Shown here: positions 30,659 through 61,526 of the stretch, piece by piece
How positions within the stretch are numbered: the first letter of the stretch is position 1
Layout: each line of letters opens with the position of its first letter
Source: Roseibacillus sp.
GTDB taxonomy: Bacteria > Verrucomicrobiota > Verrucomicrobiia > Verrucomicrobiales > Akkermansiaceae
Length of the DNA stretch: 64,000 bases
Assembly: GCA_028821775.1 (NCBI GenBank)
Contig: JAPKFB010000010.1
Location: forward strand, 1 to 64,000
Reading direction: 5' to 3'
Position numbers and translations under genes: made by a program
Notes under the pieces: generated by a model
The model's input: the letters and a program-made list of their open reading frames with translations, nothing else
The model's database searches: none
Told to the model about the DNA's origin: nothing

Positions 30659-31645
30659 ATGAAACGGAAATGGATTCTCGCGGTGCTGGGACTGGGGGGC
30701 GGGTCTGCGGTCGTGAGTTGCGTCGAGAGCGACGGGAACCACACCAAGAATGGACCAGATGGATATCCTTATGAAGTGGCTACCACGGTGGGGATGATCA
30801 CAGATATCGTGCGCAATGTGGCGGGTGAGCACGCGACAGTGGAGGGAATTATTGGGCAGGGAATTGATCCCCATTTGTATCTCCCCTCGACCCCTGACGT
30901 TAAGAGTCTGCGCCGAGCGGATCTCGTTTTTTACAATGGCTTGATGCTGGAGGGGAAGATGGGCGATGTCCTCGACAAAGTGGCGGCCAGTGGAAAGCCA
31001 GTGCACGCCGTGACGGCCAATCCCGAGTCATCCGGAGACTATGTCATGACCGACAATTCGAATCATCACGATCCCCATGTCTGGATGGATGTCGCGGGAT
31101 GGATCAAAGCGGTGGAGGTCGTGAAGACCTCGCTGGCGGACTACGACAAGGCCCATCAAACGGACTACGAAAAGAACGCAGCGGTCTATGTGGAACAGTT
31201 GCGCAAAATCGACGACTATGCCAAAATATCGATTGCTTCCATTCCCGAAGGTCAACGTGTGCTGGTGACCGCGCACGACGCCTTTGGATACATGTCGCGG
31301 GCGTATGGGATAGAAGTACGGGGCATCCAGGGGATCAGTACGGAGTCGAACGCTGGATTGAGGGACATTGAAGAGTTAGTGGACTTCCTGGTGCAGCGCA
31401 GGATCCCGTCGGTCTTTGTGGAGTCGTCCGTGCCGCGCAAGAACATCATGGCCCTGGTGGAAGGGGCCCGGGCCAAGGGGCACGAAGTGAAGGTTGGCGG
31501 CGAGCTATTTTCCGACGCGATGGGTAAGGCCGGAACTTATGAAGGAACCTATGAGGGCATGATCGATCACAACGTGACGATCATCACCCGGGCCTTGGGT
31601 GGAGTGGCGCCGGTCCGGGGCCTCAACGGGAAGCTTGAGGAGTAA
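30659..31645 (+). CDS. Metal ABC transporter substrate-binding lipoprotein (TroA/MntA/ZnuA family)
   Basis: Lipobox VVSC; ATTVGMITDIVRNVAGEHATVEGIIGQGIDPHLYLPS, HHDPHVWMD, TAHDAFGYMSRAYGIEVRGIQGIST. Confidence 0.92.
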   Translation: MKRKWILAVLGLGGGSAVVSCVESDGNHTKNGPDGYPYEVATTVGMITDIVRNVAGEHATVEGIIGQGIDPHLYLPSTPDVKSLRRADLVFYNGLMLEGKMGDVLDKVAASGKPVHAVTANPESSGDYVMTDNSNHHDPHVWMDVAGWIKAVEVVKTSLADYDKAHQTDYEKNAAVYVEQLRKIDDYAKISIASIPEGQRVLVTAHDAFGYMSRAYGIEVRGIQGISTESNAGLRDIEELVDFLVQRRIPSVFVESSVPRKNIMALVEGARAKGHEVKVGGELFSDAMGKAGTYEGTYEGMIDHNVTIITRALGGVAPVRGLNGKLEE

Positions 31646-31675
31646 CCCTTTGCTTGGAGCCCCACCACTTGCCTC

Positions 31676-32491
31676 ATGAAACCCTTCGTTGATCCTCCTG
31701 TCATCCCGGTCGATGGACGGCCCGAGCACCCGGATAATCTTCCGCTATCCATTCACGATCTGACCGTCGCCTACCACCGCAAGCCGGTCATCTGGGATAT
31801 CGAGTTGAACATCCCGGAAGGCAAGTTGGTGGGCGTGGTGGGACCCAATGGGGCGGGGAAGAGCACCCTGCTCAAGGCCTGTCTTGATCTTGTGCCCAAG
31901 ACCTCAGGCGAGGTGAAAATCTACGGCGAGAGTTACAAGAAGCAGCGCAGCCTGATCGGGTACGTTCCGCAGCGGGAGAGCGTGGATTGGGATTTCCCGG
32001 TCAGTGCTCTCGATGTAGTAGCGATGGGAACCTACCGAAAAATTGGCTGGTTCAAATGGGTCGGGAAGGCGCAGAAGAAGCTCGCCCGTGAGGCTCTGGA
32101 GCGGGTGGGGATCGGGCACCTCGGCGACCGGCAAATCAGCCAACTCTCAGGCGGGCAACAACAGCGGGTCTTTCTTGCCCGTGCCCTCGCGCAGGATGCC
32201 AAGGTGTACTTTATGGACGAGCCATTTGCCGCCGTTGATGCGGCGACGGAACAAGCGATCGTGGCCCTCCTCAAGGAGTTGAACAAGGCGGGGAAGACCT
32301 GCCTGGTGGTCCATCACGACCTGGCCACTGTAAAGCGTTACTTTGATTGGCTGGTCTTGCTCAACATGCGCGTGGTTGCGTCCGGGCCCACCGCGGAGAT
32401 TTTCACGAAGGACAACCTGCAGAAAACCTACGGCGGGAAGCTGAGTTTGTTGGATGACGTCGCGGAGGCGTTGCGCCATGTGGGCAGATAG
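31676..32491 (+). CDS. Metal ABC transporter ATP-binding protein
   Basis: Walker [18 protein letters not shown] signature, [12 protein letters not shown]. Confidence 0.95.
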
Positions 32492-33932
32492 GTCAGCGAT
32501 CATCCTGCGAAGGGTGATTTTGGTCATTCTGCTCCTGGGGGCGGAATCCGCTTCCGGGGGACAGGTCGACTGGCCCGAGGCAGGGCTTGTCTGGAAGGTG
32601 TTCACCTTGCAGGATTACAATACCCGTCAGGTCGTGATTTCCACCATCCTGTTGGGAGTGACCGCGGGGCTGGTGGGAACCTTCCTGCTTTTGCGCCGAC
32701 GGTCCTTGATGGGAGATGCCCTCTCCCATGCCACCTTCCCGGGAATCGGAGCGGCCTTTGTGGTGATGATCCTGTTGGGTGGAACCGGAAGATCACTTCC
32801 GGGATTGCTGGTGGGCGCGAGCGTGACCGGCCTGCTGGGCGTGCTCCTCGTAATGGCGATACGAAATACCACGCGACTGAAGGACGACGCGGCCATGGGG
32901 ATCGTGCTCAGTGTCTTCTTCGGGGTAGGGGTGGCCCTGATCCAAATGGTGAAGGACATGCCTCAAGCGGGACCTGCCGGACTGAATGATTTCATTTACG
33001 GCACTGCGGCCTCCATGATCCACAGTGACTTCCTCCTCATCCTGGTGGTGGCGATCGGCACCTGCCTGGTCTCGCTTCTTCTGCTCAAGGAACTCACCCT
33101 CCTCTGTTTTGACGAAAGCTTCGCCGCGAGCCAGGGCTGGCCCACGGTGAGGCTCGATATTGCTCTGCTCACCCTTGTCACCGCGGTGACGGTGATCGGC
33201 TTGCAAGCTGTGGGGCTCGTCCTGATCATCGCCTTCCTCATCACTCCTGCCACCGCTGCCCGATTCTGGACCCAACGACTCGGGTGGATGTTGACTCTCT
33301 CGGCCATCATCGGAGGGGTGAGTGGGTGGCTGGGGGCCTCCCTGAGTGCCCTGGTGCGCGATCTTCCCACCGGCGCGGTCATCGTGCTGGTGGCCGCCGC
33401 CATTTTCCTGCTCAGCATGCTTTTCGGTTGTGGGCGGGGAGTCGTTCCCCGCGGACTTCGCCATGCGCGTCTCCGGCGCAAGGTGGGCCGACAACACCTC
33501 CTTCGGGCGGTCTACGAGATTGTCGAATCCGGGCAACCGGATGTCGCGGAGCCCGTTCGGAATCTTCCCGTCACCTTCGATGCTCTTCTCGCCCATCGCT
33601 CCTGGTCCGCAGCGCAGGTGGGTGGGCTCCTCCGCACCGCCCGGGCGGAGGATCACCTGGAGAATACAGAGCCTGGCTCGGTGCGTCTTTCGGAGGCTGG
33701 ATTTGGGGAAGCGTCCCGGGTGACGCGCAATCACCGGCTGTGGGAGTTATATCTGATTCGTTATGCCGACATTGCTCCCAGTCACGTTGACCGGGACGCC
33801 GACCTCGTCGAGCACGTGCTTGATGCCGAGGTGGTGAGCCAGCTTGAATCCGAGCTTCAGGACCGGCCTTCTAGCCTCGAAGTGCCACCCAGTCCGCATT
33901 TTATCAACCAACCTAGCCCCGAAATCTCATGA
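32454..33932 (+). CDS. Metal ABC transporter permease (ABC-3 family) fused to a C-terminal DtxR/MntR-like domain
   Basis: ABC-3 TM region ([41 protein letters not shown]) followed by soluble [56 protein letters not shown]. The first codons overlap the ATPase gene, so the start is uncertain. Confidence 0.88.
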
Positions 33933-34867
33933 ACTGGACCATCGATGACACCTGGATCGTGATCATCGGCGCGATGTGTGCGGTGGCCTGCGCCCTGCCG
34001 GGGTGCTTCCTCGTTTTGCGGCGAATGAGCATGATGGGAGACGCCATCAGCCATGCGGTTCTTCCCGGCCTGGCGGCAGGATTTTTGCTGACAGGGAGCC
34101 GGGCCAGCCTGGTGATGTTCATTGGAGCGGGAGTGGTCGGAGTGCTCACCGCGGTCTTTACACAGTGGGTGAGCAAATTCGGGAAGGTGGACCGGGGCGC
34201 GGCCATGGGGATCGTGTTCACCACCCTCTTTGCGATTGGACTGATCATGATTCGGCAGGCCGCCGACGATGTGGATCTCGATGCCGGGTGCGTGCTCTAT
34301 GGCGCCATTGAACTGACCATTCTTGAGCAACCAGTGAGAATCGGAGCGTTCGCGATTCCTCCTGCGGCCCTCATGATCGGTTCCGTGTTGATCGCAAATT
34401 TGCTGATTATCATGCTGTTATTCAAGGAGTTCCGGATCAGCTCCTTTGATCCCGCGCTTGCCACCACGGTTGGGATCAATGCCAATTTAATGCATTACCT
34501 CCTCATGACCATGGTAGCGATCACGACCGTGGCCGCGTTCGAGGCGGTAGGCAGCATCATTGTGATTGCGATGCTGATCGTCCCCCCGGCGACCGCCTTT
34601 CTGCTCACTCATCGGCTGAGCGTAATGCTGGTCTTCAGCGTGGTAATTGGTGTGATTTCCTCGATTCTGGGCCATATGGGGGCCCTCTCAGTCCCTCTTC
34701 TCTTTGGCCTGAAAGGGACCGTGACATCTGGAATGATGGCGGCAGTGGCTGGCGGACTGTTTTTCCTAGCTTGGATTCTTGGTCCGGAGGGACTTCTCAC
34801 CACCAGAGTGCGAGGAAATCGAGAGATCGAGAAGCCGGGTTCCGTCCCTGCTGGTGAGACGGGCTAG
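33929..34867 (+). CDS. Metal ABC transporter permease (ABC-3 family), second subunit
   Basis: RRMSMMGDAISHAVLPGLAAGFLL, RGAAMGIVFTTLFAIGLIMI; 4-nt overlap with the upstream gene. Confidence 0.93.
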   Translation: MNWTIDDTWIVIIGAMCAVACALPGCFLVLRRMSMMGDAISHAVLPGLAAGFLLTGSRASLVMFIGAGVVGVLTAVFTQWVSKFGKVDRGAAMGIVFTTLFAIGLIMIRQAADDVDLDAGCVLYGAIELTILEQPVRIGAFAIPPAALMIGSVLIANLLIIMLLFKEFRISSFDPALATTVGINANLMHYLLMTMVAITTVAAFEAVGSIIVIAMLIVPPATAFLLTHRLSVMLVFSVVIGVISSILGHMGALSVPLLFGLKGTVTSGMMAAVAGGLFFLAWILGPEGLLTTRVRGNREIEKPGSVPAGETG

Positions 34868-52022: not shown

Positions 52023-52949
52023 TCAGGACCTTTCCGGGGAGAGCTTCGCCAGGGCCTCGATATTGGCTCTCATGACAGAGAGAAAGTCGCCACTGGCGGG
52101 GCGATTGCTGCAGGAAGATACCACCACGCAGGTGAGGCCCATGGTCTTGAGTTTCTCGAGATGGGCTGGCAGCGGCTCGCTGTCCCAGATGAAGTATTTT
52201 ACTCCGGGGTTGGCCTCTTGGACCTTCTTGAGGTCCGCGATCGCTTCGGTGCCCAGTTCCATCTCGGAATCCCAGAGCAGGGAGAGGATCTCGAGTCGGT
52301 AGGCCCGTTCCCAGTATTGATAAGATGGATGGGAGGCGATCACGGGTGCGTGGTTGAGATTCGAGACCACCTTCGCGGTGACCGTATGCAATTCCTTGAG
52401 ATCCGTGAGGAGAGCGGCGAGATTTTTCATCACAGCGTCCTTTTGATCCGGAAAATCGGCTCCGATGGCGGTAGCGATGGTGGTGGCCTGCATCCCAGCC
52501 TGCCGAAAATCCATCCAGGTTGTGAAGGCGGTTCCGCCATGAGAATGTTCCGCCCCCTCCTTAAGATGGGTGTGTTTGATTGCGCTCTCGATGGTGATGA
52601 AGCTCTTTTCGAACGAGGAGGACGTGTCGACGGTGGACTCAAAGGGGAGTGACGCGGTGGCCGCCCACTGGGCATAATTCGCGCCGTTGAGAAGAATGAG
52701 GTCAGCCTGCTGCATGCGGACGATTTGCTCGTCGGTCGGTTCCCAGAATGCGGGGTCCAGATCGGAGGGGGCGTCAAAGATGATGGTGGCAAACTCTCCG
52801 GCCAGGCGTTCGGCGAAGTAGGCGAGTGGATAGTTGACGACGGCGATGGTGGGCTTGTGGGCGCTCTCGATTTCGGTGGATTTCCTCTTTGCGCCGCAGG
52901 AGAAGAGAAAGCTCAGCGTGCAGGTGGCGAGGAGGAAACGGGTATTCAT
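52023..52949 (-). CDS. TroA/ZnuA-like metal-binding lipoprotein
   Basis: Lipobox LFSC; TIAVVNYPLAYFAERLAGE, EPTDEQIVRMQQADLILLNGANYAQW; His-rich HTHLKEGAEHSHGG; PVIASHPSYQYWERAYRLEI. Confidence 0.85.
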   Translation of the reverse strand: MNTRFLLATCTLSFLFSCGAKRKSTEIESAHKPTIAVVNYPLAYFAERLAGEFATIIFDAPSDLDPAFWEPTDEQIVRMQQADLILLNGANYAQWAATASLPFESTVDTSSSFEKSFITIESAIKHTHLKEGAEHSHGGTAFTTWMDFRQAGMQATTIATAIGADFPDQKDAVMKNLAALLTDLKELHTVTAKVVSNLNHAPVIASHPSYQYWERAYRLEILSLLWDSEMELGTEAIADLKKVQEANPGVKYFIWDSEPLPAHLEKLKTMGLTCVVVSSCSNRPASGDFLSVMRANIEALAKLSPERS

Positions 52950-52965
52950 GGGGAGGGTGGGAAGG

Positions 52966-54150
52966 TTAGTTGAGAAGCTGGGGAAGGAGGCCGGCGGAGA
53001 ACGATTTGGTGATCGCGGCCGAGAGAAGCGCGAGCACAATGCCCGAGATCAGAACGATCGCAACTTCGGTTGATTTAAGCATGACGAGGGAGGCAGTGCG
53101 GGCTCCGATCTTGGCGTAGGTTTGCATCTCACGTTCGCGCAGTCGGAAGGAGAGGAGGAAGACGAGGGCGGCGAGGGCAAAGGCCGTGAGACCGAGAAGG
53201 AGGAAGGCGGCGAAGGTCATCTTGCTGGTGGCGAAGAGGGTCTCGGTCAGTTGAGTGACGGCATCCAGAGGGATGACAAGCTGCCCGCTGGAAGACGGGC
53301 CTTGATAGGCTCCCAGAGCGAGAGCGCGGGATTTCTTGTCCTTGGGGATGAGAATGACGGAAGAGAGCGGGTAGTGCTCGGGATCGCCGTGAAAGTGGAA
53401 GGATGCGATGTTGTTCTCGGTCACCTCGTTGAATTCTACCACCGAGGCGTTGGCCTGGATGGAATTCCCTTCGCGCTTGCGCACTGCGTCCGCAGCGGTT
53501 GGGTTGGCCAGGTCCTGGTGACCATGCGCGAGACCTTCGATGACCCAGGTGGTCTTGAGATCGGCGAAGACCGCATCATCGTCCGGAGTGTGATTGGCGG
53601 CGAGGATGCCCGTGATGCGCATACGGAGGGGATAGACGCCGGCGAGATCGAATACGTTCTCAGGGGAAGAGGTGATCCGATCTCCGGGATGCAGATCGTT
53701 CCTGCGCGCAAGGCGAGCTCCGATCACGCAGTCGCCCAGGCGAGTGATCATGCGACCCTCCGCCACCGGGAGGGTGCGCGCATCGAAGTATGCGAGGGAG
53801 GTGCCGATGATGGGCGCCTCCTTTGCGTGGAAGCGGGCGTGGATTGGGATCGTGGTGCCGAAGCGCTCCTTGGCGAGCTTGGTGTAGGCGAGGTGCTTCA
53901 GGGAAGGGAGTTCCTGTGAAGTGAAGTAGAGGGCGTTGAGGGTGAGGTCGAGGGAGCTTCCCTTGGGGCCGAGGAGAAGGGGCGTGGAACGGGCGCGCTC
54001 CTGCAGGATGCGGGTGGACTCCGAAGTGAACACGTAGAGCGCGAGCGGAAGGTAAATCGTGAGGGCAATAGCGGCCACCAGGGTGAGGGTGCGGAGAGGC
54101 CGGTAGCTCAGGTGCTTCCAGCTCAGATAGGCAATGCCGCCGGCTCTCAT
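52966..54150 (-). CDS. FtsX/MacB-like ABC transporter permease
   Basis: N-terminal SWKHLSYRPLRTLTLVAAIALTIYLPLALYVF; large periplasmic region; C-terminal FLLLGLTAFALAALVFLLSFRLREREMQTYAKIGA. Confidence 0.85.
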   Translation of the reverse strand: MRAGGIAYLSWKHLSYRPLRTLTLVAAIALTIYLPLALYVFTSESTRILQERARSTPLLLGPKGSSLDLTLNALYFTSQELPSLKHLAYTKLAKERFGTTIPIHARFHAKEAPIIGTSLAYFDARTLPVAEGRMITRLGDCVIGARLARRNDLHPGDRITSSPENVFDLAGVYPLRMRITGILAANHTPDDDAVFADLKTTWVIEGLAHGHQDLANPTAADAVRKREGNSIQANASVVEFNEVTENNIASFHFHGDPEHYPLSSVILIPKDKKSRALALGAYQGPSSSGQLVIPLDAVTQLTETLFATSKMTFAAFLLLGLTAFALAALVFLLSFRLREREMQTYAKIGARTASLVMLKSTEVAIVLISGIVLALLSAAITKSFSAGLLPQLLN

Positions 54151-54818
54151 GAAGGGTCAGGGGCGAACTGGTTGAGATTCTCGAACTGCACGACCTCATC
54201 GAAGGCCTCAAGGAGGGCGAGATCGTGGGTCGCTACCACGAGGGTGCGATTGGCGACCTTGGCAAAGTTGACCATGAGGTCGAGGACCATGCGCTTGTTG
54301 GTGGGGTCGAGATTCCCGGTCGGTTCGTCGGCCAGCACAATGCGCGGATTGATGGAGAGGGCGCGGCAGATGGCGACGCGTTGGCGTTCACCATGAGAGA
54401 GGTTGTCGGGGCGCGTGTTCCAGTAGGGCCCGATCCCAGTTTCCTCTGCGAGTTTACGGGCCCGCTTCTCGAGGGCGTCGGGATCTGTCTGCAACCCAAG
54501 AAGACGAGGGAGCAGGATGTTCTCGCGCACGGTGAGGTGCTCAACGAGTTCGAACTCCTGGAAAATGAGGCCGATGTGGGAAAGACGATGAGTGGCACTT
54601 GCGGACGCTCCGAGCATACTGACCACGGTTCCATCGAGTTGGATGCGACCCTCTTGTGGTTGCAGAATGCCGGCGGCGAGATTGAGGAAGGTGGTTTTGC
54701 CGCACCCACTGGGACCAACGATGGCGGTGGCGCTTCCGGGGCTGCAGGCGAAGTGATCTATCCGCAGGCCGAAGGAACTGCGAGGGTAGGAGAAGACGAT
54801 TTCGTTGACAGTGAGCAC
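54147..54818 (-). CDS. LolD/MacB-like ABC transporter ATP-binding protein
   Basis: GPSGCGKTTFLNLAAGIL, LSHGERQRVAICRAL, VLADEPTGNLDPTN; 4-nt overlap with the permease gene. Confidence 0.93.
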   Translation of the reverse strand: MLTVNEIVFSYPRSSFGLRIDHFACSPGSATAIVGPSGCGKTTFLNLAAGILQPQEGRIQLDGTVVSMLGASASATHRLSHIGLIFQEFELVEHLTVRENILLPRLLGLQTDPDALEKRARKLAEETGIGPYWNTRPDNLSHGERQRVAICRALSINPRIVLADEPTGNLDPTNKRMVLDLMVNFAKVANRTLVVATHDLALLEAFDEVVQFENLNQFAPDPS

Positions 54819-54824
54819 AGAAGA

Positions 54825-56057
54825 TCAGGGGGCGGGGTCGCGTTCGCGGGCGTGCAACGTGAGCCCGGTGATTTTCCATGTTTCCTGCAGAGGCTCGATT
54901 TCAAAAGTTGCCTGATAGTGATTGGTACGATCGTGAAAGTGACCCCAGTGGCCGACGCGTCCGCTGACTTTCCAGGCACATTTCGTCAGGAATCCACGGC
55001 TGGACTTACTCGGAGTGGGGGATGAGGACTCGATCATGAGGTCTTGGACGCGAACTCGGGAGCCGTCCCGCTCGCGACTTTCGAGGGTGCGTTGGATTCC
55101 GAGGAAAATGGATTCGAGGGCCTCCCCGCCGACGACCTTGCTCAAAACGTCGTACTGCTTGCTTTGATCGCGATAGTCGAAAGCGTGGTAAACCCCTCGC
55201 AGGAGGGGATCAATAATCTCGGACGCGTGGGCTTCATCGAGGGCGTGGCCCCTGCCAGTCGGAGTATATTCAAAGGAGACGCGATCTTTCACGGCGGCCG
55301 CGGCGCCAGCAAGAACCCCGATTCCAACCAGGGCGAGGTTGGGCCGCCCTGTTTTGAGCAAGCGGAGGATGACGGGGATGGTGCAAAGAATGAGAGCGAT
55401 CGAGAGCCACGGAATTTTGATCGTGCTGAGATCGGGGGTTGGTGGGGCCTTGGGAGACTCGCGAGCTCCAAGTGGGTAACGACCGCGGATATTGAGAGAG
55501 GGTGCGAACTTGCTCAGGTTGAAGAAGCGGGTTTCCACCGCGTCAGCTACATTGATCGTAATGTAGGGCGCCTGGGCTGGGATGAGATCCCAGAAGAGGT
55601 CGATCGCCTGACTGAGATCGGTATTGGGAGCCGCGAAGACCACGCTGATGCGAAGATCGTTCACCGAAACCACAGCCTTCGGGTCGATGAGAGCAAACTC
55701 CTTGGCGTTGGGTTCGATGAAATGCACGCGATCGAGAGTGAACTCGATGGGCTCGTCCATTCTCGTAACGGGGCACTTCTTCGCCAAGAATTTGCTGATC
55801 GTGGGCTTAATGGCCTCCCGTTGTCTCGGGGTGAGGATGGAGTCTGCAGTCAGTCCCAAGTCGAGCCACTCCTGGAGGGCCAGCGGACTTACCACGAATT
55901 CTTTTTCCAATTGCCAGGCGTCGAGATAGAGGGACCCGCTGATGGTGGCCGGGGGCGGCGTAGCGGGGTCGTTCTGCGCGTTCAGAAAAGGCGAGAACAG
56001 TAAGCTGAGTGCGACCGCAGCTCGGAAGCCAGTGCGGGGGAGAGTGGGGGGAGACAT
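54825..56057 (-). CDS. Secreted/membrane-anchored protein of unknown function with His-rich C-terminal motif
   Basis: Signal peptide, central TM IPWLSIALILCTIPVILRLL and LALVGIGVLAGAAAAV, C-terminal VSGRVGHWGHFHDRTNHYQATFEIEPLQETWKITGLTL; 6 nt upstream of the ATPase gene. Confidence 0.75.
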   Translation of the reverse strand: MSPPTLPRTGFRAAVALSLLFSPFLNAQNDPATPPPATISGSLYLDAWQLEKEFVVSPLALQEWLDLGLTADSILTPRQREAIKPTISKFLAKKCPVTRMDEPIEFTLDRVHFIEPNAKEFALIDPKAVVSVNDLRISVVFAAPNTDLSQAIDLFWDLIPAQAPYITINVADAVETRFFNLSKFAPSLNIRGRYPLGARESPKAPPTPDLSTIKIPWLSIALILCTIPVILRLLKTGRPNLALVGIGVLAGAAAAVKDRVSFEYTPTGRGHALDEAHASEIIDPLLRGVYHAFDYRDQSKQYDVLSKVVGGEALESIFLGIQRTLESRERDGSRVRVQDLMIESSSPTPSKSSRGFLTKCAWKVSGRVGHWGHFHDRTNHYQATFEIEPLQETWKITGLTLHARERDPAP

Positions 56058-56127: not shown

Positions 56128-56399
56128 GCAAGCAATTGGGGGCGATCGCGCCCATGCAGCGGGAAAGTTGTTCACATGATGACGATTTTGGTGCGGCCGT
56201 GAATTATTTGGAGGGAAAATGCAGAAATCGGACCACCTGATCCGGGTTGGGGGGAATAGTCCAGTGAAGAGGTTGGATCCCGGATTCAGCTCGTATGACG
56301 GATCGATTGAGAGGTTTCGCTCTTGGCGCGAGTAGTTTAGGGTAGTTGGCTTGTAAGTCTCCTTCAGCACTGGCAACTTGGCACGCCTTCAATATTTCC

Positions 56400-59300
56400 A
56401 TGAGTCTCTTGAATAAAATTTCCCCGTCGCTGAGCTTAGCGGCGGTGCTCTCGACCGGGGCTCTCTTGGGAGCTGATATAGATTCCGAGGACCGTCCGGT
56501 CAGCTACTGGAACGACATTCGGCCGCTTCTGCAGGCGAGTTGCCAGGGATGCCACCAACCGGCGAAGGCGAAGGGGGATTATATCCTGACCGACGTGCCT
56601 CGCTTGATCGCGGGTGGTGAGAGTGAGGAGCCGGTCGTGATACCGACCAAGCCGGATGAGAGTTATTTCCTTGAGCAGATCACACCCAAGGATGGAAAGG
56701 CAGAGATGCCTCCGAAGGATGCACCTCTTCATGAGACCGAGATTGCACTGATCAAGCGTTGGATCGCGGAAGGGGCGATCGATGATACTCCTGAGAATGC
56801 GCATCAGCGCTACGACATGGAACACCCACCGGTCTATGCAGTGCCGCCGGTGGTGACTTCGCTCGATTACTCTCCCGATGGATCGCAGATTGCGGTGGCA
56901 GGTTTTCACGAAGTGCTCGTGCACAAGTCGGATGGCAGTGGTCTGATCGCGCGGCTGGTGGGACTTTCGGAGCGGATCGAGAGTGTGAAGTTTTCTCCTG
57001 ACGGCACGATGCTGGCAGTGACGGGCGGGCTGCCCGGACGAATGGGCGAAGTCCAGGTGTGGGACGTGGCGAAGAAGAAGCTCAAGGTGTCTGTGCCGGT
57101 GACCTATGACACCGTCTACGGCGCGAGTTGGTCCCCTGACAACACGCTGGTGGCCTTTGGATGTGGGGACAACACCCTGCGTGCGATCAAGGTCTCCAAT
57201 GGAAAGCAGGTTCTCTTCATGGGGGGACACAACGACTGGGTGCTCGACACGGTGTTCTCCCGCGACGGGAAAGAAGTGATCAGCGTGGGGCGTGACATGA
57301 CAGCCAAGCACACTGAGTTGGAGACCGAGCGCCTCATCGACAACCTGACCTCGATCACGCCGGGTGCCTTGAAGGGCGGAATCACGGCGGTGGCGGGTCA
57401 CCCCATGAAGGATGAAGTTCTCGTCGGGGGATCCGATGGAGTGCCACAGATCTTCCGTCTAAAGCGACAGACAGTCCGAAAAATTGGAGACAATGCCAAC
57501 GTGGTGCGGAAATTCCCAGCGATGAAGGGGCGCATCTGGGATGTGGCTTTCAGCGCCGATGGTAAGCGGGTGGCGGCGGTGAGCAGTCTAAATGGCTCGG
57601 GTTCGATCCACATCTACTCCGCAGAGTACAGCAGTGATATTCCCGGAGACATTCGCAAGATTTTTGACAAGACTCCAAATGCGCAGGAAAAGGAGAAGCT
57701 CGCCGAATACTGGGGGCGGGAGGTGAAACTTCTGCACGGAATTGACGTGCCCGAAACGGAAATGTTTTCGGTGGCCTTCTCGCCCGATGGCACGAAGCTG
57801 GCCGCTGCGGGGGCGGACGGGATGATCCGATTTGTCGAATTGGAGATTGGGAATATTTCCAAGACCCTGATGCCTGTTCCGGTGGAAGGGAAAAAGGAAG
57901 TGGCCGCAGTCGAGAGAGGAGCGCAGAAGCCCCTGAATCGGAAGCGTGGCAAGCACGCGGAACCCACCGAACGCAAATTTTCCCCGCATGAGATTGCGAG
58001 CCTGCAGGTCGAGCCCAGGGAGATCGCGTTCACTTCTTCAAATGAGTATGCGCACATCTTGGTTACCGCCACCCTGAAAAATGGGGGCAGGGCTGATGTC
58101 ACCCGCCAGGTCGTGGTGGAATCCGCGACCGGCTTGGTCGAAGTCAGCGCGCACGGGTTGGTGCAACCGGTGCGGGATGGACAGGGGGAGTTTGTGCTGA
58201 TCCTCGGGGAGCAGAAGGTCCACGTGCCGGTGAAGGTGGCGGGGAGTCTCGGCATCAAAGTGCCCGATTACGTGCGGGATGTGAAGCCCGTGATCAGTCG
58301 GATGGGATGCGACGCGGGAACCTGTCACGGGGCCAAGGATGGCAAGAACGGCTTTAAGCTTTCCCTGCGAGGCTACGATCCCATCTATGATGTGCGTGCC
58401 TTTACGGATGATATTTCCGCCCGGCGAGTGAACTATGCGTCGCCCGATGACAGCTTGATGTTGCTGAAGGCCACGGGTGCGGTGCCACATGAAGGACAGC
58501 AGGTGACCCAGCCCTACTCTGAGTATTACCGGTTGATTCGGGATTGGATTGCGAATGGAGCAGAGCTCAAGGATCACAAGAAAGTGGTGAAGAGCATCGA
58601 GGTGTTCCCGAAGAATCCGGTCATTCAGGATGTGGGCGGCCAGCAGCAAATCCGGGTGGTGGCGACCTATCTGGACGGATCGAAGCGCGATGTGACGCGG
58701 GAGTCGTTCGTGGAAAGCGCCAATCAGGATGTCGCGATGCACGATGACTTCGCACTGATGAATACCCTGCGCCGCGGGGAAGCTCCGGTCCTTGCGCGCT
58801 ACGAAGGATCCTACGCGGCGACAACGCTCACCGTGATGGGGGATCGCAGTGGCTTTGAGTGGAAGGAGCAGCCCGCGATCAACGGGGTCGACAAGTTCGT
58901 GGCCAACAAGTGGAAGCGCATGAAGATTCTGCCCAGCGGGCTTTGCACCGACGAAGAATTTTTCCGTCGCATTCATCTCGATCTCATCGGGCTCCCGCCA
59001 AATCCACTGGTGCTGCAGCTCTTCCTCCTGGATGAGACTCCGAGCGAGGAGAAGCGGGCCGGGGTTGTTGACGACCTCATTGGCTCGCCTGATTTCGTCG
59101 AGCACTGGACCAACAAGTGGGCGGACATGCTGATGGTGAACAGCAAGTTCCTCGGTGGGGAAGGGGCCAAGATTTATCGGGAGTGGATCCGCGGGGAAGT
59201 GGAGAAGAACACGCCCTACAATAAATTCGTGCACAAGATCCTGACCGCGACTGGATCGAACAAGGAGAACCCGCCGGCCTCCTACTTCAAGATCCACCGG

Positions 59301-61526
59301 GAGGCTGATCTCTTGATGGAGAACACCACCCACCTTTTCCTCTCCACGCGCTTCAACTGCAACAAGTGTCACGATCATCCTTTCGAACGCTGGACTCAGG
59401 ATCAATACATGGAAATCGCGGCCTACTTCGCCCAGGTGAAGTTGGAGGCCGACGGCAAGAACAGCGGGAAGAACAAGATCGGGGGAACTGCGGTGGAGGG
59501 CGCCAAGCCCCTCTACGAGATTGCCACGGACCTGGCCGAAGGGGAACTGAAGCATGAACGCACCGGCGTGATCACTGCTCCCTCCTTTCCCTATCCGGTG
59601 AGCTTTGAGAAACCCACGGCGTCCCCTGGTCAGAAGACGACGCGCCGCGAAGAACTTGCAGCCTGGATCACGGCGGGGGACAACGACTATTTTGCGATGA
59701 GCTATGCAAACCGGATCTGGGGTTACCTTCTGGGAACCGGTGTGATTGAGCCTCTCGATGACATCCGGGCGGGTAATCCGCCCACGAACCCTGAATTGTT
59801 GAACTGGCTTACCGCCGAGTTCGTAAAAAGCAACTTCGATGTGCAGAAGCTCATGGCGGTGATCTGCAAGTCGCGCACCTATCAGCTTTCCCTCGCGACC
59901 AACAAGTGGAACGAGGATGACGAAGTTAACTTTTCGCATGCCAAGGCCCGTCGTCTTCCGGCCGAGGTGCTCTATGACGCGGTGTATGCGGTAACGGGTA
60001 CCACGCCGAAAATCCCCGGAGTGAAAGCAGGGACGCGGGCGAACATGCTTGATGCCCGACGGGACTTGAAGAGCGGACTGCTCGCCACCCTTGGCCGCCC
60101 CAGTCGGGAGAGCGCTTGCGAGTGCGATCGCTCCAATGATGTGCAACTCGGTGCGGTGATGGCGCTCTTGAGCGGTCCTGAAATCGCGGAGGCCGTGGGG
60201 GACAGCAAGAATGCGATTGCCAAGTTGGTGACCAAGACCGCGGACGACAACGAGCTCATCCGGGAGATTTATCTACGGGTTCTCTGTCGGAAGCCGAGCA
60301 AGGGCGAGGAGTCGGTCATTCTGTCGAACTGGGCGCTCATTCAATCCGATCATGAGAATATGGTGGCGGACTTGGCGAAACGAGAGGAGGCCTGGCTCCC
60401 GGTTCGTGATGAGCGGGAAGGAATGCGATTGAAGAGCATCGAGGGGGCCAAGATGGATCTTAGCGCCTATGAGTCGAAGCACGAGGCGGAGCGGAAGCGT
60501 CTGGCCGACGAGCGCAGCAAAGCCATCGAGGCTGCCAAGAAAGCGGTCACTGACTACGAGGCCCTCCTGCCGAAGAAAGCGGAGGAGTTTGAGTCCGGTG
60601 CGAAGGGGGTGGAGATGGGAACGAAGTGGCATCTGGTGACTCCGGGAACTGCCACCACTTCAGACAAATCGAAGGTGGAGATTCTGCCTGATGGCTCGGT
60701 GCGGGGCTCTGGCAAGGAACGAGTGTTCGACTATCTGGTGACCGGGCAGACCAAGCTCCCCAAGATTACGGGAATCATGATCGAAGTCGTGCCGGATCCT
60801 TCCTTCCGAGGCGCGGGCGCCGGGCTGAACCCCGACGGAAATCTGGTTCTCACCGAACTTCAGGCTCGTTGGATGAAGTTCGGGGAAGGGGAGAAGGAGG
60901 TGGAAATTGCCTTCAGCGATGCCAAGGCAACCTTCAATCAGAAGGACTTCGATGTGAAGCGGGCCTTCGATGGAAATCTCGATAAGGGGAACAAGGCCTG
61001 GGCGCTCTCCGGTGCCAACCTGCAGCTGACCCAACGGGCGACCTTCAAGCTGAAGGACGCTGTGACTGGCGAACCAGAGGGCGTGAAACTCACGGTCGGG
61101 CTCCTTTGCCGCTATCAGCAGTATCCGGTCGGGCGTTTCCGTATTTATGTCACCAGTGACGCTGACCCTCTGTCCTTTGGCGTTCCGGCCCATATTGCGA
61201 AGACGATAGCCGCAGAGCCCGCGTCCCGGAGCGAAGAGGAGAAGAAGGTCTTTGCGGCCTGGGTCGGTGAAAGCGACGCGGAGTTTCAGAAGCGGCGCTT
61301 CGGCGTGAAGGGGAATGATGCTCCCATTCCTCCCGACAAAAAGATGGAAGAACTCAAGAAGGCCCTCGTTTACGCGGAGACGCCGATCGAAGTGGACCCC
61401 AAACTCATCAAATTCCGGTCCGAAGTGGCGATGAGCGCCGCTCAGGCCAAGAATCCTCGTTTGACCGCCGCCCAGGACCTGACTTGGGCGTTGATCAACA
61501 ACCCTGCTTTCCTGTTTAATCACTGA
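56400..61526 (+). CDS. Planctomycete-type cytochrome c (PSD1) protein with WD40 repeats and DUF1549/DUF1553 domains
   Basis: [21 protein letters not shown]40-like repeats ([37 protein letters not shown]), second haem site [67 protein letters not shown]. Confidence 0.93.

Follow-up and report, generated by a model that had tools for sequence, protein, structure and literature searches.

A Roseibacillus operon pairing a ZnuA-type lipoprotein with a MacB/ZrgB-type permease, a candidate envelope machine for metal acquisition

The window, a stretch of 64,000 nucleotides from Roseibacillus sp., carries on its minus strand an operon of four genes (52023-56057) which encode, in this order, a 410-aa membrane protein (ATG at 56057), a LolD-like ABC ATPase (GTG at 54818), a MacB/ZrgB-type permease (ATG at 54150) and a ZnuA-fold lipoprotein (ATG at 52949). 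The genes are spaced by a 6-nt gap, a 4-nt overlap (ATGA) and a 16-nt gap. This layout, as well as the histidine motifs cited in a sequence-only reading of the same DNA, was re-found in full. The arrangement goes beyond chance, since loci from many phyla share these neighbours and the histidine motifs are invariant, unlike the other histidines of the permease. A separate ABC-3 operon lies in the same genome at 30659-34867.

Table 1. Features of the operon, with coordinates in the window and the evidence for each.
Feature	Position	Strand	Evidence
410-aa protein ('DUF410'), unnamed, exported, membrane	54825..56057	-	without Pfam match; AlphaFold model
N-terminal periplasmic beta domain, residues 36-205	55443..55952	-	Foldseek, model
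Two-helix membrane hairpin, residues 217-256	55290..55409	-	sequence and model
C-terminal NTF2-like (ARC6-like) domain, residues 262-408, best-conserved part	54834..55274	-	alignment, Foldseek
Motif GHWGHFHDRTNHY, residues 369-381	54915..54953	-	alignment of 31 sequences
LolD/FtsE-like ABC ATPase	54147..54818	-	Pfam, NCBIfam; kept in related loci
MacB/ZrgB-type permease, 394 aa, three predicted transmembrane helices	52966..54150	-	Pfam, hhalign, model
Asp190-Asp191, permease periplasmic domain, invariant	53578..53583	-	127/127 relatives
HGH (His209, His211) of permease, invariant	53518..53526	-	127/127
FHFH (His252, His254) of permease, invariant	53389..53400	-	127/127
Short C-terminal tail of permease after Gly349, 46 residues, one TM helix	52969..53106	-	tail-length survey
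ZnuA/TroA-fold substrate-binding lipoprotein, 308 aa	52023..52949	-	Pfam PF01297, alignment of relatives
DPAFW, replacing first canonical His ligand (DPHxY)	52743..52757	-	His in 0/68 relatives
Putative metal loop HTHLKEGAEHSH (His126, 128, 135, 137)	52539..52574	-	alignment of 69 relatives
TTW, second canonical ligand (HxW) replaced	52515..52523	-	Thr in 59/69, His in 6/69
His207, third canonical ligand position	52329..52331	-	kept in 62/68 relatives

The lipoprotein, which bears the lipobox LFSC, belongs to the ZnuA family (Pfam E 7e-33) and has the ZnuA fold. Alignment with its relatives shows that two canonical metal ligands have been lost and that an HxH...HxH loop is present instead, the four histidines of this loop being near-invariant (69/69, 69/69, 67/69 and 67/69 in the order of Table 1). 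The partners of this binding protein at the surveyed loci were not an ABC-3 permease and a ZnuC ATPase. No ABC-3 permease was ever seen beside its group in the survey, whereas the canonical ZnuA relatives of the same phylum had one, and the group is separate from the binding proteins linked to ABC-3 permeases. A consistent association of homologous binding proteins with ABC-3 permeases, which the sequence-only reading had named as evidence against itself, was therefore not what the survey returned.

The permease was assigned to MacB_PCD (PF12704, E 4e-7), and its match to FtsX was partial, below cutoff and confined to profile positions 2-71 of 120. Pfam and structural matching both indicated a MacB-like periplasmic domain and fold, the best PDB matches of the model (pLDDT 89) being MacB, LolCDE and YbbAP. 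Homology to ZrgB extended over 352 columns, nearly the full length (hhalign E 6e-43), and the family profile gave E values of 1e-42 to 7e-31 with ZrgB relatives, as compared with 3e-4 for an unrelated FtsX-type protein. The earlier guess that Zrg is the closest precedent is supported by this nearly end-to-end relationship. All four histidines of the HGH and FHFH motifs are kept in every one of the 127 relatives; the other histidines of the protein are not invariant. Only three hydrophobic segments were predicted, versus the four (or ten) transmembrane helices typical of type VII permeases (PMC12646458). The tail following Gly349 does not exceed 50 residues in 127/127 relatives and measures 90-93 residues in the ZrgB relatives measured. 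Being too short to hold the fourth transmembrane helix of MacB and ZrgB, it suggests that this helix is absent from the permease family (127/127). That the 410-aa protein might supply a substitute for it through its membrane hairpin became less plausible, because inspection of the Methylomagnum relative of that protein showed no such hairpin, and the Paracoccus relative has just one segment, which is N-terminal.

The ATPase matches ABC_tran in Pfam, and the best NCBIfam models are LolD (163 bits for a trusted cut-off of 308) and FtsE (160 for 265), so that it falls under both cut-offs. It is retained in 81/82 related loci. For the 410-aa protein, present in 105/190 genomes of the order, no Pfam match was obtained, and an AlphaFold model was used (mean pLDDT 85). 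Foldseek matched the whole model to the Cu-bound Ang-1 domain of HupE/UreJ-2, which was the top match, and to ZrgA/PA4063. From the topology, these matches probably belong to the N-terminal beta domain, which is duplicated in longer relatives. Since no sequence homology of this domain to DUF2796 could be detected (hhalign probability 3), its kinship with ZrgA is claimed as a structural resemblance only. In the C-terminal domain, H370, W371, G372, H373, H375, R377 and N379 (HWGHxHxRxN) are invariant in 31/31 sequences from many phyla. This motif had been described as the end of a His-rich protein; it is indeed present, although some 30 residues still follow it up to the C-terminus, and the protein as a whole is not His-rich.

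The permease has at least 581 relatives, of which the 80 that were examined span at least 10 phyla. In the 49 loci with enough flank, on which the module counts rest, the ATPase was present in 48, the ZnuA-type protein in 43 and the 410-aa protein in 32. The survey thus spoke against a lack of conserved synteny, another outcome that the earlier proposal would not have survived. Among 190 genomes of the order, the permease and the 410-aa protein were found together in 95, singly in 10 and 4, and neither in 81, and this co-occurrence holds also where the genes are unlinked. Weak class-wide relatives of the permease adjoin DUF3299, and the named ones (Phaeobacter, Sulfitobacter) adjoin DUF2796 and DUF3299. 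Plasmid copies occur in Methylomagnum and Paracoccus, where the adjoining gene bears the annotation 'zinc ABC transporter substrate-binding protein'; a CopC gene lies upstream in Methylomagnum.

A Pfam scan of 64 neighbour proteins revealed no recurrent metal-specific neighbour. NikR with a TonB receptor and DUF4198 were encountered near relatives, carbonic anhydrase and PCuAC once or twice, and one relative of the binding protein lies inside a cbb3-oxidase/Cu-ATPase cluster. No Zur-like box above chance was found upstream of 69 operons, in phyla whose Zur motif may differ, and an upstream alignment of Roseibacillus relatives gave nothing above chance. Matches to EntH and IHF were short and spurious.

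The operon probably specifies an ABC machine of the MacB type (type VII), a sister system of Zrg, by which a transition metal is obtained from the envelope. The ZrgB homology, the conserved four-gene module and an invariant or near-invariant histidine motif in every exported part are the established elements of this reading. It is not a member of Zrg in the strict sense, because neither DUF2796 (ZrgA, PF10986), searched for in the operon and the genome assembly with a positive control, nor DUF3299 (ZrgE, PF11736), searched for in the assembly with a positive control included, was found. Against metal acquisition count the lack of a Zur-like box above chance upstream of the 69 operons, in phyla whose Zur motif may differ, the neighbours, which point to no single metal across loci, and the class itself, since type VII transporters typically pass no substrate across the membrane (PMC12646458) and this permease seemingly has even fewer helices than is usual for them. 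By kinship with Zrg and ZnuA, zinc would be the likeliest metal, copper or nickel being possible alternatives. The lipoprotein would capture the metal with its HxH...HxH loop, and the membrane-tethered 410-aa protein, with its ZrgA/HupE-like and HWGHxH NTF2-like domains, may be a second metal carrier. The four histidines and two aspartates of the permease could form a docking or transfer site, and ATP cycling would shift its periplasmic domain so that the metal is stripped off or passed on. A bolder version, which we put forward as a doubtful speculation, is a three-helix type VII motor passing no metal through the membrane, whose ATP-driven His4Asp2 domain would pull metal from the ZnuA-fold lipoprotein and load the membrane-tethered carrier. 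Such a machine would hand metal over by mechanotransmission, a kind of which we know no description.

The machine might instead serve enzymes of the periplasm and not the cytoplasm, carrying metal (most probably copper) to or from them, a role proposed for NosDFY in the maturation of N2O reductase. This would agree with the periplasm-side action of type VII machines (PMC12646458), the Cu-bound Ang-1 match (PMC12537917), the single cbb3-oxidase/Cu-ATPase cluster, the CopC gene and one PCuAC neighbour. However, no copper-enzyme neighbour recurred among 80 loci, no recognised copper gene lies alongside the copy in the window, and the nearest functional relatives, Zrg and ZnuA, handle zinc, so that copper delivery appears rather unlikely. 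Less likely again is the export or recycling of metal or apo-metallophore from the periplasm, comparable to the action of MacB on drugs. The permease does have the MacB fold, and an export function has been put forward for PA4063-4066, a cluster resembling Zrg (cited in PMC11761036), but the conserved module lacks a MacA-type adaptor or TolC gene, adaptor-like genes follow in few loci only, accompanied there by an ATPase and an FtsX-type gene of their own, and the recurrent partner has a binding-protein fold.

A Lol (lipoprotein-sorting) or FtsEX (division) device without metal role, with the ZnuA-type gene as a passenger, would account for LolD and FtsE being the models closest to the ATPase. 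The wide shortfall from both cut-offs, the recurrence of the ZnuA-type partner in at least 10 phyla and the invariant histidine clusters make it very improbable. We give equally little credit to an ordinary ZnuABC/TroABC system whose ABC-3 permease was lost locally: the binding protein is genuinely ZnuA-fold and could be shared with the ABC-3 operon of this genome, but its group is distinct, never beside ABC-3 and devoid of canonical ligands. Its ordinary pairing with ABC-3 was rejected, as contradicted by the neighbourhood survey and the separate grouping.

ZrgA is needed for Zn-limited growth via zrgBC (PMC9820375), and type VII transporters, which do their work on the periplasmic face, typically pass no substrate across the membrane (PMC12646458). 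The puzzle of Zrg is this use in metal uptake of a MacB-type transporter, a class thought to work in the periplasm and not to import (PMC9820375, PMC12646458). The pairing of a ZnuA-type protein with a MacB/ZrgB-type motor matters because this motor class is thought to push outside the membrane, not to import metals. The operon offers a second, widespread system for this puzzle, in which the permease is smaller and the binding protein has a familiar fold but has lost its canonical metal site. Its few invariant residues provide a short list for mutagenesis, and the unnamed 410-aa family of many phyla gains a candidate function. Caution is also warranted with the label 'zinc ABC transporter substrate-binding protein', which can cover proteins without ABC-3 pairing.

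No description of a MacB/FtsX-type permease paired with ZnuA was found in the literature searched, which omits most subscription journals, and this four-gene envelope machine, widespread in bacteria, is apparently undescribed as far as could be found. FpvCDE (PA2407-2409), considered as an FtsX-type precedent, was dropped, its permease type not being stated in the literature found. Like ZrgABCDE of Vibrio (PA4063-4066 in Pseudomonas), the operon combines a ZrgB-related MacB-type permease and a LolD-like ATPase with exported partners that are putative metal binders with His-rich stretches, the model of the 410-aa protein resembling ZrgA. It differs in having a ZnuA-fold binding protein in place of DUF2796 and DUF3299, three predicted transmembrane helices in the permease instead of four, its own HGH/FHFH motifs and no Zur box found. 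With ZnuABC and the cluster A-I importers (ZnuA, PsaA, AdcA, AztC) it shares the ZnuA/TroA fold, a His-rich loop and the third histidine ligand, whereas ligands 1 and 2 are replaced in nearly the whole group and the partner is not ABC-3. As in MacB, LolCDE, FtsEX and YbbAP (type VII), a periplasmic domain lies between TM1 and TM2 and the ATPase is LolD/FtsE-like; in contrast, TM4 is apparently missing and the partners are metal-binding-like rather than MacA, LolA, EnvC or TesA. Finally, the 410-aa protein recalls the HupE/UreJ-2 'anglerases' (Ang-1, PMC12537917) by its structural match and by a putative metal-binding domain tethered to membrane helices, but it has no HupE permease domain, its N-terminal histidines are not conserved, and it adds an NTF2-like HWGHxH domain.

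The sequence-only reading described a compact operon at 52023-56057, and four co-directional genes were indeed found tightly packed in this region, with spacings of 6 nt, -4 nt and 16 nt.

Genes of the operon, with start codons and Pfam/NCBIfam assignments
Product	Start	Strand	Pfam/NCBIfam
410-aa protein	ATG 56057	minus	no match
ABC ATPase	GTG 54818	minus	ABC_tran
Permease	ATG 54150	minus	MacB_PCD
ZnuA-type lipoprotein	ATG 52949	minus	ZnuA

A divergent gene (56346-61526) encodes a protein of 1726 aa in which WD40-like repeats occur together with planctomycete-type cytochrome/PSD1-like regions; it is a conserved upstream neighbour in Roseibacillus relatives.

Conservation of the synteny, an expectation of that reading, was borne out. 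A scan of genome contigs recovered at least 581 permease relatives, and among the best 80, ranked by match to the query and kept for the survey, at least ten phyla are represented (Verrucomicrobiota, Pseudomonadota, Planctomycetota, Acidobacteriota, Myxococcota, Gemmatimonadota, Thermodesulfobacteriota, Cyanobacteriota, Armatimonadota and Methylomirabilota). The tested set comprised 82 loci, two plasmid loci included; tblastn of plasmids recovered a complete module on a Methylomagnum ishizawai plasmid and, in Paracoccus liaowanqingii, a form with a short, C-domain-only 410-aa protein. Among the 49 loci whose flanks reach 1.3 kb or more downstream and 3.5 kb or more upstream, the ATPase was present in 48, the ZnuA-type protein in 43 and the 410-aa protein in 32, and 63 of 64 ZnuA-type matches in surveyed loci fell inside the operon region. 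Of 190 genomes from the order, 105 encode the 410-aa protein and 101 the permease; both occurred in 95, only one in 10 and 4, and neither in 81, a table that leaves out two genomes with weak permease matches only and whose p-value takes no account of phylogeny. The genes are often unlinked in one family, where the 410-aa gene directly follows a Gfo/Idh/MocA-type oxidoreductase gene (loci L048, L050, L065-L068 and others), the LolD-permease pair lies elsewhere and, in several genomes, the lipoprotein gene occupies a third site. Since the genes co-occur there despite being unlinked, their co-occurrence is not mere hitch-hiking.

The same reading would have been refuted had homologous substrate-binding proteins (SBPs) consistently paired with ABC-3 permeases, which they did not. 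The SBP matches of a phylum-wide search form two sets, a strong one (best E per protein below 1e-25) and a weak one (E above 1e-16). Among the weak-set loci inspected, nearly all had an adjoining ZnuC ATPase, many with a visible ABC-3 permease, and none of the strong-set loci in this search had either gene alongside. The 5.2-Mb genome, whose nearest named relatives are Akkermansiaceae/Roseibacillus genomes (Verrucomicrobiota), encodes two more ZnuA-family proteins, one within the ABC-3 operon at 30659-34867. In the tree, 20 ABC-3-linked proteins stayed together (SH-aLRT 99), and the data do not reject a single clade of permease-linked and unlinked proteins (AU p 0.57). One row of the tree, L208, was wrongly labelled ABC-3-linked: its locus has no ABC-3 gene, and it sits on a very long branch. 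L002, the second genomic ZnuA relative, was entered in the wrong reading frame, and the Paracoccus SBP was unstable in position. The first canonical His ligand is missing in 68/68 SBP-group sequences scored, the second position is Thr in 59/69, the third His is retained in 62/68, and 67/69 carry an HxH(x)nHxH loop. A lipoprotein relative lacking a linked permease (L230 6511-7569, G360) carries a much enlarged His/Asp/Gly repeat loop.

The permease model (AlphaFold, pLDDT 89) matches MacB, LolCDE and YbbAP. The suggestion of the Vibrio Zrg zinc system as precedent held: family profile and hhalign group the permease with ZrgB (E 6e-43, 352 columns), the PA4063-4066-type operon for comparison being taken from one P. 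aeruginosa record. Class-wide weak relatives have DUF3299 alongside where tested, and both DUF2796 and DUF3299 accompany the named Phaeobacter and Sulfitobacter relatives. His209, His211, His252, His254, Asp190 and Asp191 are identical in 127/127 relatives, a set for which one of two search patterns included HGH, neither included FHFH, and 46 sequences came from pattern-free profile searches; other His residues are unconserved. Counted from Gly349, the tail never exceeds 50 residues in the 127 relatives (median 46), whereas ZrgB relatives with a locatable motif have 90-93, and hydropathy gives three strong segments, not the four helices typical of type VII permeases (PMC12646458). A frameshift is an unlikely cause, because the next gene starts 16 nt on and the short tail is conserved.

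In the 410-aa model (pLDDT 85), a two-helix hairpin lies between a beta-rich N-terminal domain and a C-terminal domain made of a helix followed by four strands. The best Foldseek PDB matches of the model (E 1e-5 to 1e-3, target TM-scores 0.5-0.7) were the Cu-bound Ang-1 domain from a HupE/UreJ-2 protein, ZrgA/PA4063 and ARC6/PARC6 domains, with NTF2-like proteins among weaker ones. As the output lacked query ranges, domains were assigned from the order of elements, by which the N-domain would correspond to Ang-1 and ZrgA, and the C-domain to ARC6. ZrgA is the nearest structure to Ang-1 according to the Ang-1 authors (PMC12537917). Longer relatives have two tandem N-domains (hhalign 93%), and H370, W371, G372, H373, H375, R377 and N379 do not vary across 31 sequences.

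At the sequence level, the comparisons establish a conserved module with altered SBP ligands, a permease homologous to ZrgB and invariant or nearly invariant His motifs in each of the three exported proteins. The lipoprotein loop may capture metal, which would be relayed through the 410-aa protein while ATP would move the periplasmic domain of the permease. Kinship favours zinc. Genes for NikR/TonB, DUF4198, CopC, PCuAC, carbonic anhydrase and a cbb3 cluster each occur near the module or its relatives once or twice only, and do not decide the metal. CopC, a TonB-dependent receptor and NikR flank the M. ishizawai plasmid module (L114 3064-15291), making nickel a possible substrate there. A permease-less lipoprotein relative (L229 3278-10931, G218) has cbb3 oxidase genes on one side (ccoN, ccoO and one for a FixG-like ferredoxin protein) and a Cu-ATPase-like gene on the other, a hint of copper or oxidase assembly. 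An alpha-type carbonic anhydrase, a zinc enzyme, adjoins the module in two unrelated loci (L172 7169-8083, L173 12777-13703).

In Verrucomicrobiota Zrg-like operons (L088, L091, L092, L108), an unnamed His-containing lipoprotein (AGMPHIHANEG...) replaces DUF2796, and DUF3299 lies downstream, at times fused to a longer protein. The Sulfitobacter sp. S190 Zrg operon has two tandem DUF3299 genes (L118 7283-8283). A 425-kb P. aeruginosa 'plasmid' record (L239, CP109682.1) holds ribD, nrdR and the PA4063-4066 operon, all of them chromosomal as a rule. A literature search of incomplete coverage found no published account in which a MacB-type permease is paired with a ZnuA-fold SBP. In working principle, Zrg is the nearest relative of the operon, but the operon lacks both defining Zrg parts tested for, ZrgA and ZrgE, and its predicted permease topology differs; the system is better called Zrg-like than Zrg.
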